64,000 nt of DNA. Origin: Bacillota bacterium. Lineage in GTDB: Bacteria; Bacillota; Dethiobacteria; DTU022. The DNA lies in contig JAKOVL010000132.1 of assembly GCA_029782095.1 (NCBI GenBank), positions 1 through 64,000 of the forward strand, written 5' to 3'. Made by a program: the position numbers and the translations under genes. Shown piece by piece: positions 45,218 through 59,046 of the stretch. The stretch's first letter is position 1. Each line of letters starts with the position of its first letter. The notes beneath the pieces were generated by a model, which did no database searches, was not told where the DNA came from, and saw nothing but the letters and a program-made list of their open reading frames with translations.

Positions 45218-46312
45218 ATGATCTTATACCTGGTTCGCCCTTCAGCAGGGGGCATACAGGAGCATCTGCGCCTGCTGCTGGAACATTTTGGGCAGCATCA
45301 TCCGGTGAAGCTTGCCGGACCCCGCAGCGGCACAGAGCTGCTATCGTTGCAGCCGGATCAGTTTTTAACTATAAGCGGCGGTTTCACGCCCGCAAGCGAT
45401 GTTTGCGCCTGGTGGCAGTGTTACCGGCTGCTGCGGTTGCTGCAGCCGTCTTTGCTGCATATCCATGGCTTTAAGGCGGCCTTGGTGGGCTGCCCTGCAG
45501 CCAGGCTGGCCCGGGTGCCTGCGCTGGTAACGGTGCACAACTATCCGGCCCACCGGGTTGCTGCAGCTGTGCTGCCCGCGCTGTCAAGGCTCAACGGGGC
45601 TTCGGAAATACGCTTTATCGCTGTCTCACGGGCCCTGGCCAGGGAACTTTCCGCCTGGGGCATTCCTGCCGCAAATATCAAGGTGATCCATAACGGCATT
45701 GATGCGGCCCCCTTTGAGCAGGCCGGCCGGCAGAGAAGTTACATCGCCGGGGACAGTGAGATCGTGGTGGGAACCGTGGCCCGGATGGCTCCCCAAAAGG
45801 GGCTTTCCCACCTGCTGCAGGCGGCAGTTCTGCTGGTCCGGCGTTTCCCGCGGTTGCGCTTTATTCTGGCCGGGGACGGGCCTGATCTTAATTCATTGAA
45901 AGAGCTGGCTGCAGCCCTGGGTTTAAGTGAGCGCATTTCTTTTCCCGGGTACTGCCGCGATCTTCCCTCGCTGCTGGGGCAGATCGACATCTTTGTTTTG
46001 CCTTCGCTCACCGAAGGTCTGGCCATCACCCTCCTGGAAGCCCAGGCCTCCGGGTGCGCGGTCGTGGCCTCCCGGGTCGGCGGGGTGCCGGAAGTGATCG
46101 AGCACCGGCGCACCGGTATCTTGGTCCCGCCCGCTTCACCCGGGGCGCTGGCTGACGCGGTGGCTGCATTGATTGAAAACCCGGCCCTGCGCCGCAGCAT
46201 GGCCCTGGCCGGCCGGGAAAGGGTGAGAAAACACTTTACCGTGGAACAGATGCTCAAGCAAACCGGCCTGGTTTACGCAGAGATGCTCGCTGACAGGAGG
46301 TGCCGGCTCTGA
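45218..46312 (+). CDS. glycosyltransferase family 4
   Basis: 364 residues from ATG 45218 (an upstream ATG at 45134 exists without support). N-terminal GGIQEHLRLLLEHFG for the acceptor lobe; VIHNGIDAAPFEQ; GTVARMAPQKGLSHLLQAA (donor lobe start) and the EGLAITLLEAQASGCAVVASRVGG donor-binding motif with the E-x7-E pair. It makes a retaining glycosidic bond, likely to a cell-envelope lipid or polymer. Its stop overlaps the start of the next gene (TGATG), so the two are coupled. Confidence 0.9.
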   Translation: MILYLVRPSAGGIQEHLRLLLEHFGQHHPVKLAGPRSGTELLSLQPDQFLTISGGFTPASDVCAWWQCYRLLRLLQPSLLHIHGFKAALVGCPAARLARVPALVTVHNYPAHRVAAAVLPALSRLNGASEIRFIAVSRALARELSAWGIPAANIKVIHNGIDAAPFEQAGRQRSYIAGDSEIVVGTVARMAPQKGLSHLLQAAVLLVRRFPRLRFILAGDGPDLNSLKELAAALGLSERISFPGYCRDLPSLLGQIDIFVLPSLTEGLAITLLEAQASGCAVVASRVGGVPEVIEHRRTGILVPPASPGALADAVAALIENPALRRSMALAGRERVRKHFTVEQMLKQTGLVYAEMLADRRCRL

Positions 46313-48618
46313 TGCGCCTGCATGCCCGTAGTTCTGTTTCAGCAGCGGCGCTGGCCGTTGTGGCTCTATTGATCGTTTTAGTGGCCCTGAATTGGGGCCG
46401 TGCAGCGGATATGTTCCAGGTACCGGCAGCGGCTCCTTCCGGGGGAGAGCGGCGCTTGCTCATGCTGGTGGTGGACCGTTTAAGTTATCGGGATCTGCGC
46501 CAGAAAGCCGGGCCGGCCCTGCAGTCGCTGCTGGATGGCACCGCCCTGTCGCTGATGAATGTTCGCGCCGGGCGTGCGGGCAGTGAAAGCGGCTACCTCA
46601 GCCTGGGGGCAGGGGCCAGGGCGGCCGCCGGTCTCGAAGGGGGCCGGGCTTTCAGGCGCAATGAAATAGTAGAAGGCTACCCGGCAGCAGCGCTGTACCA
46701 GCGCTACAGCGGGCGGCCGCCGGCGGGCGAGCTGTTTCACCTGCACGCCTTGACCCTGCAGGAGCGCAATCAGACCTTGGGATACCCTGTTGCCGTGGGT
46801 TACCTTGGAGAGCTGCTGGCCGGCGCCGGCCTGCGGGCGGCGGTGGTCGGCCACGCCGATACAGACGCTCCGGGCCGGAGTGCAGTGATGATCGCCATGG
46901 ATCGCGCCGGGCAGGTGGCCCTGGGGGCCAACGGCTTTAATGTGGTGGTGGATGATCCGCTGTACCCCTACGGCAAGCGCACCGATCCGGAGCGCTTCAC
47001 CGCCGCAGCCCTATCTTACCTGCAGGAAGCGCACCTGGTTGTGGCCGATTACGGAGACCTGGCCCGCCTTGACCAGTACTGGGCGCAGCTTTCACCGGAG
47101 CGGCGTGAAGAGCTTTTTACCGCAGCCATGGCCAGCCTAGATCGGATTATCGAAGATCTCTTGTTGTTGTGCGGGGATGAAGTCGCCTTCATGTTAGTCG
47201 TGCCTTCGCCCCCGGTAAACCTCCCCGGGGGCGGTGATCAACTGGTCCCCTTTATTATGGCCTGGCCCGGTGGAGGAGGGCCGACCTTGCTCAGCAGCCC
47301 CGCCACCCGCCGGGAAGGCCTGGTTAGCAATATTGACGTGGCGCCGCTGGTTTACTCGTATCTTGTTGAAGGTGCTTTTACAGCTTCCAACGGCCGCGCC
47401 ATGGCCGTTAACGATGTGCCTGAGCCCGCGGCGTACCTGGAGCGTTTTGCGGCCTGGTCCCAGTGGGTTTTTCAGCTGCGGGCCCCGGTAGTGAAAGGAT
47501 TTGTTTTAGCCATTATTGCAGTTTTGCTGGCCGGCCTGGCCTGCCTGTTCCTGCGCCTGCCGGCGGTGAAGCGCCTCTTTTTTATCCTGGAGGGACTGGT
47601 GCTGGTTCCCCTGGTCCTGTTCCTGCTGCCCGGCTTGATCCGGGAACCCTTGCCGCCGCTGTGGACGGCCGCAGTTATTGCCGGGGGAGCGCTGCTGTTT
47701 GTCTTTGCCCTCTACCCGCTGAAGCAAAAAGACTACCTCCTGTTTTGGTCCGCCCTGGGGCTGATTACCGCCGTGGCCCTGCTGGCGGACACAATTTGCG
47801 GCGCCGGCCTGCAGCAGTCATCTTTTCTCGGCTACGATCCCATCGGCGGTTCCCGTTATTACGGCATGGGCAATGAATACATGGGCGCCCTGATCGGCTC
47901 CGCGATCCTGGGGACAGCCGGCCTGCCCGGATTGGCCGGGCCGGGCGAACCGGTCAATGAACTTCATGGCCCGGCCTGGCGGAGAGCTTTTCGCTTAGAT
48001 CCGCTGCGCCTGGCCATTCTCTTATTCTATGGGCTCGTTATTTTTGTGCTGGCCTCGCCCCGCTTCGGCGCCAACCTGGGCGGGACCATCGCTGCGGCTG
48101 CAGCCTTCGGGACAGTCTGGGCCGGTCTGTCCGGCTTCATGGAAAAAAGGCACCTATTGCCCCTGGTGCTGACCATTTTAGCCTTCACCGCCTTAGCCCT
48201 GGGCCTGCTATACCTGCTCAACCTGCCGCAGCAAGGGCCGGTTTCACACCTGGGCAGCTTTGGTGAAATGGTTCGCCAGCGTGGCTTTGAAGGCGCCTGG
48301 GAGACAGCGCTGCGCAAGATGAGCATGAACTGGCGTCTGATCCGCTATTCCATTTGGAGCCGCGCCTTTGCCACTTTGATCGGCCTGCTGGTAATTCTCT
48401 TTTTTTATCCGGTGGGGATTCTAAGGAAGCTGAAAAAAGAGCAGCCTTGCCTGGTTAACGGCGCTGCCGCTGCCCTGGCCGGCAGCGTGGCCGCTTTGCT
48501 GGCCAATGATTCAGGCATTGTCGCCGCGGCTATGGTCCTGCTTTATGCCGCCCCGCCGGTGCTGATGCTCATTGTTTCAGAGCATTTAAGCCTTCCCGGG
48601 GAGAGGGGATCGGAGTGA
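46312..48618 (+). CDS. large membrane protein with alkaline-phosphatase-like domain
   Basis: About 768 residues; ATG 46312 is preceded by AGGAGG and overlaps the glycosyltransferase stop. One N-terminal helix, an extracytoplasmic domain (about 40-390) with alkaline-phosphatase-superfamily layout (LLMLVVDRLSYRDL at the metal-Asp position, AAVVGHADTD, a DVAPLVYSYL segment near the end), then about ten membrane helices. A conserved GYDPIGGSRYYGMGNEYMG segment sits in the membrane part. Probably modifies or degrades an envelope polymer together with the glycosyltransferase; the substrate is unknown. Confidence 0.72.
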   Translation: MRLHARSSVSAAALAVVALLIVLVALNWGRAADMFQVPAAAPSGGERRLLMLVVDRLSYRDLRQKAGPALQSLLDGTALSLMNVRAGRAGSESGYLSLGAGARAAAGLEGGRAFRRNEIVEGYPAAALYQRYSGRPPAGELFHLHALTLQERNQTLGYPVAVGYLGELLAGAGLRAAVVGHADTDAPGRSAVMIAMDRAGQVALGANGFNVVVDDPLYPYGKRTDPERFTAAALSYLQEAHLVVADYGDLARLDQYWAQLSPERREELFTAAMASLDRIIEDLLLLCGDEVAFMLVVPSPPVNLPGGGDQLVPFIMAWPGGGGPTLLSSPATRREGLVSNIDVAPLVYSYLVEGAFTASNGRAMAVNDVPEPAAYLERFAAWSQWVFQLRAPVVKGFVLAIIAVLLAGLACLFLRLPAVKRLFFILEGLVLVPLVLFLLPGLIREPLPPLWTAAVIAGGALLFVFALYPLKQKDYLLFWSALGLITAVALLADTICGAGLQQSSFLGYDPIGGSRYYGMGNEYMGALIGSAILGTAGLPGLAGPGEPVNELHGPAWRRAFRLDPLRLAILLFYGLVIFVLASPRFGANLGGTIAAAAAFGTVWAGLSGFMEKRHLLPLVLTILAFTALALGLLYLLNLPQQGPVSHLGSFGEMVRQRGFEGAWETALRKMSMNWRLIRYSIWSRAFATLIGLLVILFFYPVGILRKLKKEQPCLVNGAAAALAGSVAALLANDSGIVAAAMVLLYAAPPVLMLIVSEHLSLPGERGSE

Positions 48619-51765: not shown

Positions 51766-51912
51766 GCTTGATTGGCATAGCAGTTTTGGTAACCCGGGGT
51801 AAAAGCAGGTAGAGCCAGCAGGTGAGGGTTGATTTTGTGGGCCGGCCGGTATAAAATAGAACAGATAAAACCTGTGCACATTTATGTGCACAAAATCGGG
51901 AGGCTGGGCACA

Positions 51913-54525
51913 TTGACCTTATTTAGCGCATACATCAATCCTCACCTGGGCAGGCTGCTGGAAGCGATCAAGCTGGATAAAAATTTTGTCCGGGGTGAAG
52001 GGTGCTACCTATACGACGAACAGGGCAACCGCTACCTGGACTGCATCGCCGCCTACGGGGCGCTGCCCTTCGGCCATAACCCGCCGCAGATCTGGGAGAG
52101 CATCGAGAGCTACCGCCGCTCCGGCGAGCCGGGCTTTATCCAGCCCTCCGCGCTGAACGCCGCCGGCGAGCTGGCGAAGCGCCTGGTGGAGCTGGCCCCC
52201 GCCGGCCTGGCCTATGTCACTTTCGCCAACAGCGGCGCCGAGGCGGTGGAGGCGGCAATCAAGCTTTGCCGCTCGGCCACGGGCCGCACGGGCATCCTGG
52301 CCACGGACAACAGCTTCCACGGCAAGACCATGGGCGCCCTCTCGGCCACCGGCAACCCCGGCTACCAGGAGCCCTTCGGTGCGCCCATTCCCGGGTTCAG
52401 CCATATTCCCTACGGCGACGCGGCCGCCCTGGCAAAAGAATTAAAAGAAAAGCCCGATCACTATGCCGCCTTTATCGTGGAGCCGATCCAGGGTGAAGGT
52501 GGCATCGTGGAGCCGCCTTCAGGATACCTGGCAGCAGTCAAGGAAATATGCGCCGCCCACAAGGTGCTGCTTATCTTTGACGAAGTGCAGACCGGCCTGG
52601 GGCGCACCGGCACCCTTTTTGCCTGCGAGTCCGAAGGGGTGACCCCGGATGTGCTGGTGTTGGCCAAGGCGCTGGGCGGCGGGTTCATGCCCATCGGCGC
52701 CTGCCTCTGCACGGCCGATGTCTACAGTGAAGATTTCGGGATGAAGCATTCCTCCACTTTTGCCGGCAACTCCCTGGCCTGCCGGGTGGGCCTCAAGGTG
52801 CTGGAGCTGCTTACTGCCGGCGACGGAAAGATGCTGCACGAGGTGAAACAAAAAGGAGCCCTGCTCAAAGAGGGGCTGTTAAAGCTGCAGCAGCAGTATC
52901 CCCAGCTGATCAAATCGGTCCGCGGGCGGGGGCTGATGCTTGGCCTGGAATTCAACCTGGATCGCCACATATACCCGGGCAGCCTGCTGGGCATCATGGC
53001 TGAGCAGAACCTTTTAACCCCGGCCATCTCGTCGCACCTGCTCAACGTAGAAAGGCTCCGCGTCGCCCCCACTCTCAACGGCAGCGCGGTCATCCGCATC
53101 GAACCGCCGCTGACCATTACCGCGGAGCAGTGCCGGGAGGCCTTGACCGCCCTGGCCAGGATGCTCGAATGTTTAAGCGAGGGCAGCACCGCCCGGTTTT
53201 TGTCTTACCTGGTTCGCCCGGCAAACGGCCAGCGCTTTCCCCGCTTTGTGCCCTTTCCCCCAAACAAAGTAACACCCTCCGCCGACGAGGCGGAAGGGCG
53301 CTTCGCTTTCCTGCTCCACCCCCTGGACCTGCAGAGCTATCACCAGTTCGACAGCAGCCTGAAAAATTTCAGCGAGGCGGAGCTGAAAGAGCTGACCGGC
53401 AAGTTTAACGACATGATTGAGCCGTTTGTGATCTCCCAAGCCGCCATCACTTCCGCTGTGGGGCGGCGGGCTTACGGCGAGTTTATCGCCGTGCCCCGGA
53501 CCACGGAAGAGTTTATCAGCATGCCGCGGCAGCAGGCGCTGGCCGAGCTTAAAGCCGCCGTAGCCCTGGCCCGGGAGCGAGGTGCCCGCATCGTCGGCCT
53601 GGGTGCCTACACCTCCGTGGTCTCCATGGGCGGCCTTTACCTCAAAAACGAAGGGGTGCCCCTGACCACCGGCAACAGCTACACCGTGGTGGCGGCGGTG
53701 GACGCGGTGAATACCGCCGTGGATAAACTGCAGATGGACCGCGACGATCTTACCGTGGCCGTGGTCGGGGCCGCCGGATCCATCGGCAAGGGCATCGCCC
53801 TGCTGCTGTCGGAGCGGCTGCCGCGTCTGATCCTGATCGGCAATCCCCACAATACAGATTCCAGCCAGCGGCTGCAGGCCGTGGCCGCAGAAATCTACCG
53901 CTACCAGGCGGCCCTGATCAACCAGGGGCGGCCGTTGAAAAAAGGGGGCATGGGCCTGATCCTGGCCCGGTGCCCCGAGCTACCGCCCCCGTCGGCGCCG
54001 CCGGAAGCTTTTGCTGATTTTGTGCAGGGCGCCGGGCGCCGGCTGGGCCTGATCGAATTTTCCACCGATATCGACGCCGTGCTGGCCCGGGCTGACGTGG
54101 TCGTCAGCGCCACCAGCAGCGTCGGCAAGATTATCCACGCCGGGAACCTGAAGCGAAACGCCATTGTCTGCGATATCTCCCGCCCGGCCAATGTCAGCGA
54201 GGAAGTGGACGAGGCCCGGCCGGACGTCCTGGTCATTGACGGCGGCGTGGTCGAAGTGCCGGGCCTGCCTTCCCTGGGCTGGGACTTCGGCTTTGAAAAA
54301 GGTCTCTCCTACGCCTGCATGGCTGAAACCATGATCCTGGCCCTGGAGCACCAGTATAAGCATTTCAGCCTCGGCTCCTCCGGCGTCAACCTGGAGAGCA
54401 TCCTGCTCACCCGCACCTGGGGCGCGGAGCACGGCTTCAAACTGGCCGCCTTCCGCAGCTTCAATCGCCCTTTGAGTGAAGATAGCTGGCAGAAACTGCT
54501 CCTGGCCCGCCGCCGCGCCGGCTAA
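51913..54525 (+). CDS. class III aminotransferase fused to acyl-ACP-reductase-like domain
   Basis: 870 residues from TTG 51913 (GGGAGG 9 bases upstream). Residues 1-430 are a class III PLP aminotransferase: ANSGAEAVEAAIKL, SFHGKTMGALS, LLIFDEVQTGLGRTG and K252 in LAKALGGG. From about 465 the chain resembles cyanobacterial long-chain acyl-ACP reductase (AAR): IVGLGAYTSVV (559), LTTGNSYTV, the NAD(P)H-binding VVGAAGSIG (from 617), VCDISRP, VIDGGVVEVPG, and YACMAETM with C802 at the position of the AAR catalytic Cys, then EHGFKLA. The predicted reaction is acyl thioester to aldehyde to primary amine in one protein. TamH of tambjamine synthesis combines the same two activities. Single-gene unit. 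Confidence 0.88.
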   Translation: MTLFSAYINPHLGRLLEAIKLDKNFVRGEGCYLYDEQGNRYLDCIAAYGALPFGHNPPQIWESIESYRRSGEPGFIQPSALNAAGELAKRLVELAPAGLAYVTFANSGAEAVEAAIKLCRSATGRTGILATDNSFHGKTMGALSATGNPGYQEPFGAPIPGFSHIPYGDAAALAKELKEKPDHYAAFIVEPIQGEGGIVEPPSGYLAAVKEICAAHKVLLIFDEVQTGLGRTGTLFACESEGVTPDVLVLAKALGGGFMPIGACLCTADVYSEDFGMKHSSTFAGNSLACRVGLKVLELLTAGDGKMLHEVKQKGALLKEGLLKLQQQYPQLIKSVRGRGLMLGLEFNLDRHIYPGSLLGIMAEQNLLTPAISSHLLNVERLRVAPTLNGSAVIRIEPPLTITAEQCREALTALARMLECLSEGSTARFLSYLVRPANGQRFPRFVPFPPNKVTPSADEAEGRFAFLLHPLDLQSYHQFDSSLKNFSEAELKELTGKFNDMIEPFVISQAAITSAVGRRAYGEFIAVPRTTEEFISMPRQQALAELKAAVALARERGARIVGLGAYTSVVSMGGLYLKNEGVPLTTGNSYTVVAAVDAVNTAVDKLQMDRDDLTVAVVGAAGSIGKGIALLLSERLPRLILIGNPHNTDSSQRLQAVAAEIYRYQAALINQGRPLKKGGMGLILARCPELPPPSAPPEAFADFVQGAGRRLGLIEFSTDIDAVLARADVVVSATSSVGKIIHAGNLKRNAIVCDISRPANVSEEVDEARPDVLVIDGGVVEVPGLPSLGWDFGFEKGLSYACMAETMILALEHQYKHFSLGSSGVNLESILLTRTWGAEHGFKLAAFRSFNRPLSEDSWQKLLLARRRAG

Positions 54526-56832: not shown

Positions 56833-59046
56833 TCACGGTTCCAGAATTTCTTTCCGCTCAATCCGTTCATAATTCAAGCTTAGCGTTTTGCCCCTGTACT
56901 TAATCACTATGGTTTGCGGCACCCTGGCGGTGACTGAGTACTTGCTGTCATATCTTTGGTATTCGGTAGCCTGCTTCGCACCGTTAATGGTAAAGATTCG
57001 GTCATAGCTCACATAGTACTCCTTGCCGGATGAAACATACCTGACGCTGCCGCCGCGTACGACCATTTCATTGCCCCGGATTCTCTGCTTGAACTGCTCG
57101 TATGATTCGGTATCCGTGTCCGACAGCTCCGTGATATAGATGTGATACTCGCCTCCCTCCCTGACCAGGTCAAATTCCTGCTCCAACTTTAACCCGTCAA
57201 TCCTGGCCACCTGCCGGTCATGCTGGACCAGAAGGGAGGCGGCGTGGCTGTCGTAGGGCCTGTATTTCAGCTCGCCGTTGGCGATCATGGCCACCAGGAC
57301 GCGATCCCGCCGGCCGAAAACATAGCGGCCCTCCAGCTCCAGCTGGTCAAATTTCTCCCGGGGCATATAGGCGTGGGTTATGCGGGCTGTTCTGAATTCC
57401 AGCAGGCGCTTTTTTTGCGGCATCCGGTAGATGGTGATATTGATATTCCGGTCCTGCACGCTCATGGGCCGCCTGCCGTTGCCCACCCAGTAGCCCGGCG
57501 AGGCCTCATGTTTTTCAGGGCTGCAGTCGTCCCTGGCCGGATGGGTGGTATAGATGGCCAGGTCGGGGGCGATGTTGGCCGACCAGATATGCTCCTGGGC
57601 GCCGCAGCTGTCCACGTGATGGGCCACGGCCGTAGTTAAAGCATAATACCTGTTTCGATAGCAGTAGACATTACCCCGGCCGAGGGCGATGCCGTTGGTC
57701 ATGGGCGCGAACCTTGCGCTTATAAACCGGGGCACCTGCAGCAGCCTCAGCAGTTTAATATTGATCAAGCGGAAGGGATTGACAAACTTATTTCTTAACA
57801 TCTTGTGCCGGTTTAAGTATTGGAGGGTGTTTTCGATCACTTCGGGGTTGGTGAAAGCTTCGGCGCCGAACTGGGCCATGATCTGGTGATCCGCCTGGCC
57901 GACCAGGCCTTCTTCCACAAGCTCGTTTACGTTAAGGCCCGATGAGGATTTGATCACCGCCGGCTCCCGATCCAGGGCAATCGCGTAGATCACCTCGGGC
58001 AAAAGGTAGCAGCCGGCCCGGTACATGGCCGTAAAACACTGCACCATCTGGGCGTCCACACCCACCAGCTTCACCATGGTTTCCAGGTCTGCCGTACCGG
58101 CCGCGATCTGCTGCGCGATGGCCGGGCTGGCGGGCGGCAGCTTGCAGCCGCCCGGTTTTGGCCAGATTGTCTCCATGGCCGTCCTGATCCGGTTGCCGTA
58201 GAGGTTGCCGGATTTGTTGTCGCCATACATGCGGCTGCTGGCAGCCACAAAGGTGTTGTTTACGGAGACGGTGGCCACATCGTACCAGAGCAGGTCCAGG
58301 ATCATTTTCATCCGCTCCACAGAATCCCGGTCCCGGGAGTACTGGATATAGTTGGCCATGGCCCCAAGATTTTCAGCGTAGTAATTATTGCTGAACCACT
58401 CGGCAAAACCGTATTTGAATCTTTGCTCCATCCAGTAGTTGATTCGCCTGATGGCCTTGGTCATATGTTCGCTGCCGCTCATGCCGCTGTTGGCAAAGAT
58501 CTGATCAGGCCATTCCTGCCCGGCCAGGTACTCGCTCACCGCAAAAAGCAGTTGATGGTTTTCCGACCAGAAGCAGAGACTGTCTGCGCCGGGTTCATCC
58601 ATCCAGTATTTAAAGTTGAGGAATGTGGATTTAATCTGTTCTTTAACCTTTTGGGGCAGGCGATCGCGGCAATCTTTGTATAACCGGAACAGCAGCTGCA
58701 GCCTGAAATCGGCGCAGTCATAGCGCCTGTTAATGTATTTCAGCGAGGGCGCCAGGGCGCGGCTGATGTACTCTTCATCTACCGTGAGTCCTTCCGGTAT
58801 CTTCTCCGGTTCAGTAAGGTAGTAATAAACCAGGGACAGGCCCAGGGGATCCAGGCTTTCTTCGGGAAGGTCGGCGATGGGCTTTTGTCTTAAAGCGGCA
58901 ACCAGGTCTGCGGTCATCCACAGCAGCGCCAGTCCGGCCAAAGCGGCAGGAATGTAGAGCATAATCATCAGCGCAACCCCATTCAGCTCTTTTTGCCTAT
59001 ATTCTTTAAAGCTGGAAATAATCCTGTGTGCAAAGGTTATTCGCAT
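56833..59046 (-). CDS. large membrane-anchored protein, possibly lyase-like
   Basis: 737 residues; one membrane helix near residues 26-49. The following part (about 60-380) is rich in helices with Trp/Tyr/Asn clusters such as YGFAEWFSNNYYAENLGAM and VSVNNTFVAASSRMYGDNKSGNLYG; the remainder is beta rich, with AHHVDSCGAQEHIWSANIAPDL and a C-terminal TARVPQTIVIKYRGKTLSL. A helical toroid followed by a beta sandwich is the layout of several polysaccharide lyases and heparinases, but catalytic residues are not assignable by eye. Function unknown. Convergent with the toxin gene. Confidence 0.6.
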   Translation of the reverse strand: MRITFAHRIISSFKEYRQKELNGVALMIMLYIPAALAGLALLWMTADLVAALRQKPIADLPEESLDPLGLSLVYYYLTEPEKIPEGLTVDEEYISRALAPSLKYINRRYDCADFRLQLLFRLYKDCRDRLPQKVKEQIKSTFLNFKYWMDEPGADSLCFWSENHQLLFAVSEYLAGQEWPDQIFANSGMSGSEHMTKAIRRINYWMEQRFKYGFAEWFSNNYYAENLGAMANYIQYSRDRDSVERMKMILDLLWYDVATVSVNNTFVAASSRMYGDNKSGNLYGNRIRTAMETIWPKPGGCKLPPASPAIAQQIAAGTADLETMVKLVGVDAQMVQCFTAMYRAGCYLLPEVIYAIALDREPAVIKSSSGLNVNELVEEGLVGQADHQIMAQFGAEAFTNPEVIENTLQYLNRHKMLRNKFVNPFRLINIKLLRLLQVPRFISARFAPMTNGIALGRGNVYCYRNRYYALTTAVAHHVDSCGAQEHIWSANIAPDLAIYTTHPARDDCSPEKHEASPGYWVGNGRRPMSVQDRNINITIYRMPQKKRLLEFRTARITHAYMPREKFDQLELEGRYVFGRRDRVLVAMIANGELKYRPYDSHAASLLVQHDRQVARIDGLKLEQEFDLVREGGEYHIYITELSDTDTESYEQFKQRIRGNEMVVRGGSVRYVSSGKEYYVSYDRIFTINGAKQATEYQRYDSKYSVTARVPQTIVIKYRGKTLSLNYERIERKEILEP

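Follow-up and report, generated by a model that had tools for sequence, protein, structure and literature searches.

In the window analysed here, a 64,000-nucleotide stretch of contig JAKOVL010000132.1 from a Bacillota bacterium, one open reading frame joins a class III aminotransferase to a domain resembling acyl-ACP reductase (AAR), which raises the questions of whether this is a genuine fusion protein, whether its C-terminal half belongs with AAR, and what reaction the two halves might carry out together.

A single uninterrupted gene encodes both domains

The fusion gene (51913..54525, + strand, as are all of its features given below; stop included) encodes 870 amino acids, and its frame is uninterrupted from a TTG start at 51913 to the stop ending at 54525. 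The TTG start fits the N-terminus of the family (MxxFTxYVNPHLG) and is preceded, 9 nt upstream, by the Shine-Dalgarno sequence GGGAGG (51898-51903); no Rfam motif was found around the gene at the gathering threshold.

A preliminary description of this DNA had recognised a complete aminotransferase with K252 and, behind it, an AAR-like domain, and both assignments hold. PF00202 (Aminotran_3) covers residues 25-418 (51985..53166) at 1.4e-99 and 334 bits, above its cut-off, and K252 (52666..52668), the predicted PLP Schiff-base lysine, lies in an AKALGGG motif and is invariant in the family. The AAR-like domain occupies residues about 462-868 (53296..54516) and has its motifs in the place or context that had been described: TTGN at T585-N588 (53665..53676), conserved in AAR, in intact stand-alone relatives and in fusions; the GxxGxxG dinucleotide-binding loop at G619-G625 (53767..53787), aligned with 162-GATGDIG-168 of S. 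elongatus AAR (SeAAR); and C802 (54316..54318), the predicted acyl-accepting nucleophile, within SYACMAETM and aligned with C294 of SeAAR. A cysteine occupies the C802 position in 92/92 distinct fusion-length ORFs, all those checked.

The fusion is neither a chance join nor an assembly error, as the same protein recurs in many genomes. Within the window's family it is single-copy and occurs in 35 of 43 genomes if incomplete copies from short contigs are included, and a phylum-wide sample of 398 genomes contained it in 55; it is also present in Lutispora saccharofermentans strain m25 (L015) and on plasmids of Proteobacteria.

Affiliation of the C-terminal domain

Among oxidoreductase families, Pfam matched the C-terminal domain only to Shikimate_DH (5.8e-7) and THF_DHG_CYH_C (1.3e-5), as would be expected were it a shikimate, glutamyl-tRNA or methylene-THF dehydrogenase-like oxidoreductase with another function. 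This already disfavoured account is scarcely credible: the Pfam scan of the fusion protein brought up no AAR model, a profile of the fusions and their stand-alone relatives matched SeAAR at 2.5e-45 over the whole AAR length as against 2.7e-5 for glutamyl-tRNA reductase (HemA), the fold favours AAR, and the context of the cysteine is that of AAR. PDB sequence matches of the domain were to the PigE N-domain (4ppm, 3e-26) and to AAR (6jzq; S. elongatus AAR, 1e-16). The fold search used only a model of the C-terminal domain, which is of modest confidence (mean pLDDT 67, weak around C802; the full-length AlphaFold model, built with seven sequences, was of low confidence, with pLDDT 58.8 and pTM 0.42), and its best Foldseek matches were AAR crystal structures (6JZZ, 1.1e-15, TM 0.69 on target), followed by the carmabin TAD domain (6.7e-14) and shikimate dehydrogenases (about 6e-5). 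Grouping with shikimate or glutamyl-tRNA reductases had been named beforehand as one outcome that would speak against an AAR; when the comparison was run, AAR was far stronger in both sequence and fold, and on these profiles and this predicted structure we place the domain with AAR rather than with shikimate dehydrogenase or glutamyl-tRNA reductase.

Within that family, the fusion scores 84.4 bits against the cyanobacterial AAR equivalog model TIGR04058, below its cut-off of 449.7 bits, and 571 bits against the PigE equivalog NF053554 (cut-off 850), the NCBIfam model that matches the entire protein best. Y247 of SeAAR, important for acyl binding in that enzyme, is arginine in this family, so the acyl pocket differs from that of SeAAR. 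The ADO-docking residues R73/R79/K80 of SeAAR are likewise not kept, as expected for a reductase domain that has another partner.

Shared history of the two halves

In a tree of the AAR half, all 52 of the Firmicute fusions group with the six from proteobacterial plasmids in a single clade (100/99) apart from PigE-type proteins, SeAAR and stand-alone proteins, the exact places of the L162, L163 and SeAAR rows, which sit on long branches, being unsure. The aminotransferase half of all aminotransferase-AAR (TA-AAR) fusions sampled likewise forms a single clade (100/100). The proteobacterial members of both trees are fusions other than TamH, the enzyme of tambjamine synthesis to which the window protein had been likened, and TamH was compared by its published residue numbers.

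Nearly all TA-AAR fusions also contain an insertion of ~50 residues, placed after the Rossmann loop and before the catalytic cysteine (53890..54036, approximate bounds), which is recognised from a G-to-Cys spacing of 183 residues in the window protein and 173-188 in the proteobacterial fusions, compared with 128-139 in AAR, PigE-type and stand-alone proteins; the fusions at L136, L147 and L148 are without it. At L148 (genome G457) the fusion is divided between two ORFs of 599 and 448 aa, probably through a frameshift in the assembly or the genome. By published numbering the spacing in TamH is 180, near that of the window protein, which implies the same insertion. A single ancestral TA-AAR fusion is the simplest reading of these sequence comparisons, and the domain order of PigE looks to be of separate origin.

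After PigE, the characterised enzymes closest to the aminotransferase half are the aminotransferases of putrescine and acetylornithine, which, together with the arginine in place of Y247, would suit an enzyme performing the same two steps on an acyl thioester that is short or functionalised, such as a diamine- or amino-acid-like precursor, so that the amine would be a small metabolite and not a lipid. We consider this unlikely, because the half falls outside the ygjG/acetylornithine group in the tree and because the AAR-family reductases that have been studied use medium or long acyl chains (PMC9594044, PMC8341465, PMC7089970).

Further indications of the substrate come from the relatives on proteobacterial plasmids. 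Paraburkholderia phymatum encodes an ACP-TA-AAR protein together with a P450 and, adjacent to it, an AMP-binding ligase, Leisingera a TA-AAR with a fused AMP-binding domain, and Photobacterium sp. DA100 a TA-AAR in a cluster with ACP and ketosynthases; clade members with such acyl-activating parts are those at L159 (ACP and adjacent AMP ligase) and L162 (fused AMP-binding domain). These arrangements speak for a carboxylic acid, bound to a carrier or activated, as the substrate. An unusual neighbour was seen in Haematobacter, where a GrdB-related protein of 308 aa (L160, 12807-13733, +; PF07355, just below cut-off) follows the fusion.

Probable replacement of a stand-alone AAR

The window's own genome carries, on another contig (L009), a stand-alone AAR-like gene in the order HTH regulator, QDH-like ("quinate-dehydrogenase-like") gene, AAR, greA, lysS (the last two named by reading their translations). 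The locus recurs in the phylum: of the 398 genomes sampled, 240 have an AAR-family gene, 289 a QDH-like gene and 234 both. The QDH-like protein, about 300 aa long (308 aa at L009, 3776-4702, -), is thus nearly universal in AAR-bearing genomes and usually adjoins a small HTH regulator; at L009 it has no Pfam or NCBIfam match, and none of the papers listed in a literature search on the "quinate 5-dehydrogenase" family was relevant.

Where the fusion is missing, the stand-alone AAR nearly always retains its cysteine, as in G019, a 97% complete genome of the window's own family that has an intact stand-alone gene and no fusion. Most of the fusion genomes examined present a different picture. In five of them the stand-alone gene is absent from the locus (L229, L230, L232, L235, L243); at L231, L233, L234, L236-L239 and L244 its slot is held by an ORF of ~300-340 aa with a faint AAR score or none; and elsewhere the gene persists with its nucleophile replaced, by Met in the window's own genome, by Trp at L225, L226 and L228, by Ser at L218, and in others. 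Among scorable stand-alone proteins, 12/14 of those without the cysteine come from fusion genomes, as against 2/44 of those with it, counts that are phylogenetically non-independent and include a set of 30 best-scoring proteins biased towards intact ones. Both cysteine-less proteins from genomes with no detected fusion belong to draft assemblies, 66% and 86% complete. The only fusion genomes examined that keep the cysteine in the stand-alone protein are those at L140 (7182-8249, -) and L227 (2795-3883, -), and at L140 this gene lies directly downstream of the fusion. Several stand-alone genes had been listed with one in-frame stop, and selenocysteine at the nucleophile position was rejected as an explanation: in both cases inspected (L197, L212) the stop is the ordinary end of the gene.

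In several lineages the fusion itself sits in the slot of the stand-alone AAR, following the QDH-like gene at L125, L129 and L155; the two genes also adjoin in G396, while L152 has the order fusion, QDH-like gene, dead stand-alone AAR. Loss of the stand-alone protein recurs in several families, which would be difficult to account for if the fusion did not perform its reductase function, and the fusion seems to have superseded this older, separate AAR.

Many genomes with an intact stand-alone AAR have no close aminotransferase, so the end products of the stand-alone protein and of the fusion need not match, and amination may be an addition brought by the fusion. This, and the fact that stand-alone AARs do without a fused aminotransferase, lends something to an account in which the AAR domain of the fusion frees its aldehyde for other enzymes, towards an alcohol, a hydrocarbon or an aldehyde-derived lipid, and the aminotransferase serves mainly as a scaffold or acts on a separate substrate. 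We judge that account quite improbable, since both catalytic sites are conserved, both halves have one history, and TamH and PigE couple the two activities.

Gene neighbourhood

In most of the window's family the fusion has a pair of M16 peptidase genes on one side and proS on the other, and conservation of neighbours is only local, with the M16 pair upstream in that family and proS or other housekeeping genes downstream in relatives. An all-against-all comparison of neighbours at about 70 loci gave no conserved metabolic, acyl-activating or amine-using partner, and in particular no conserved dedicated acyl ligase/ACP partner of the TamA type near the Firmicute fusions. The route had earlier been called "self-contained", which is too strong: an acyl thioester, a reductant and an amino donor are needed, and no acyl-activating partner lies nearby. 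Two proteins encoded near the fusion in the window, of 772 aa (46300-48618, +) and 737 aa (56833-59046, -), have no Pfam match.

A second aminotransferase fusion was noticed in the same genome. On contig C109 (L010, 4645-6729, +), a 694-aa protein combines a class III aminotransferase with a periplasmic-type solute-binding domain (PF00497), an odd combination because the two domains normally act in different compartments. Beside it lie genes of an NMT1-like ABC transporter and one whose product resembles aldehyde ferredoxin oxidoreductase (names taken from the translations). The same fusion occurs at L254 (G018) and, in G017 and G026, as ORFs 700-707 aa long.

Proposed function

Taken together, we think it likely that the fusion is a bifunctional acyl-thioester reductase/aminotransferase of the TamH type, which replaces the phylum's stand-alone AAR of the ancestral locus. 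The direct basis of this reading consists of the domains, the catalytic residues, fold-level similarity, the clade formed by both halves, the distribution of the fusion and the decay of the stand-alone gene; substrate, cofactor, product and physiological role are what we infer.

On the model of AAR, an acyl chain would pass from a carrier, most likely acyl-ACP, to C802 as a thioester, to be reduced to the aldehyde by NAD(P)H seated in the GxxGxxG loop; precedents for the hydride donor are NADH in TamH (PMC9594044) and NADPH in AAR. The aldehyde would then be handed to the PLP site at K252, where, by comparison with TamH and PigE, the PLP domain, having taken an amino group from glutamate or another amino acid, would convert it to a primary amine. 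This sequence of acyl thioester, aldehyde and amine, which had been put forward from the DNA alone, is well supported by homology and by two experimentally studied relatives. The earlier reading as a whole is partly supported and largely right, its long-chain substrate and amine product being predictions. Within the phylum, the fusion would stand in for AAR in an ancestral locus of regulator, QDH-like gene, AAR, greA and lysS.

A broader proposal, which we advance tentatively and hold to be somewhat doubtful, is that an acyl-thioester reductase pathway has gone unrecognised in a large share of anaerobic Firmicutes (regulator, QDH-like protein and AAR beside greA-lysS), and that in several lineages the fusion took over its step and channels the aldehyde into primary-amine lipids of ordinary physiology and not into a secondary metabolite. 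None of the papers listed in a literature search on fatty amine lipids in Firmicutes was relevant. If our reading of the fusion is right, one-enzyme conversion of an acyl thioester to a fatty amine is no rarity peculiar to marine pigment producers and would be a common, vertically inherited trait in anaerobic Firmicutes, whose implied amine lipids or aldehyde-derived lipids can now be sought. The exchange between fusion and stand-alone AAR also provides a handle on the stand-alone locus, whose step is probably acyl-thioester reduction, and makes the QDH-like protein a good target for a search for function. The Firmicute fusions, including the enzyme of L. saccharofermentans m25, add to the candidate biocatalysts for fatty amines.

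Comparison with known systems

The nearest known system is TamH of Pseudoalteromonas tunicata (PtTamH, tambjamine YP1), which converts aldehydes to C7-C14 amines and, with TamA, turns a C12 acid into dodecylamine in vitro via acyl-ACP using NADH and L-Glu, while refusing C12-CoA (PMC9594044). TamH, which the preliminary description cited for its joined thioester reductase and aminotransferase, is more than an analogue of the fusion: the reductase part of TamH also belongs to AAR, and its domains come in the same order (PMC9594044), with the same lysine, cysteine and GxxGxxG, and the architecture of the fusion was therefore already known. TamH differs in belonging to a pigment cluster with a dedicated acyl-ligase/ACP protein, TamA, whereas the Firmicute fusion is a lone gene in housekeeping surroundings, inherited throughout the family.

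PigE, of prodigiosin MAP biosynthesis, has the same two domains and reportedly carries out thioester reduction followed by amination of the aldehyde (PMC8341465), but in it AAR precedes the aminotransferase, the insertion is lacking, and both halves fall in separate clades. Cyanobacterial AAR (TIGR04058; 6JZQ, 6JZU, 6JZY, 6JZZ) shares the fold, the nucleotide loop and the acyl-accepting cysteine with its context, C294 of SeAAR holding an acyl thioester in the crystal (PMC7089970); it has no fused aminotransferase, and has the ADO-docking residues and Y247. The carmabin TAD domain (9E4S, 9E56) resembles the AAR half in fold, and one entry title describes its cysteine as disulfide-bonded to dephospho-CoA, but it is a natural-product assembly-line domain whose entry titles suggest no aminotransferase fusion. 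The phylum's own stand-alone AARs belong to the same reductase family, the intact ones keeping YACMAET, TTGN and GxxGxxG, and differ in having neither aminotransferase nor insertion and in forming a separate clade. Set against these systems, the fusion is a new branch of the known TamH architecture. What is new about it is that it occurs across the phylum without belonging to natural-product clusters, and that it has taken the place of a separate AAR in the conserved regulator, QDH-like, AAR, greA and lysS locus.
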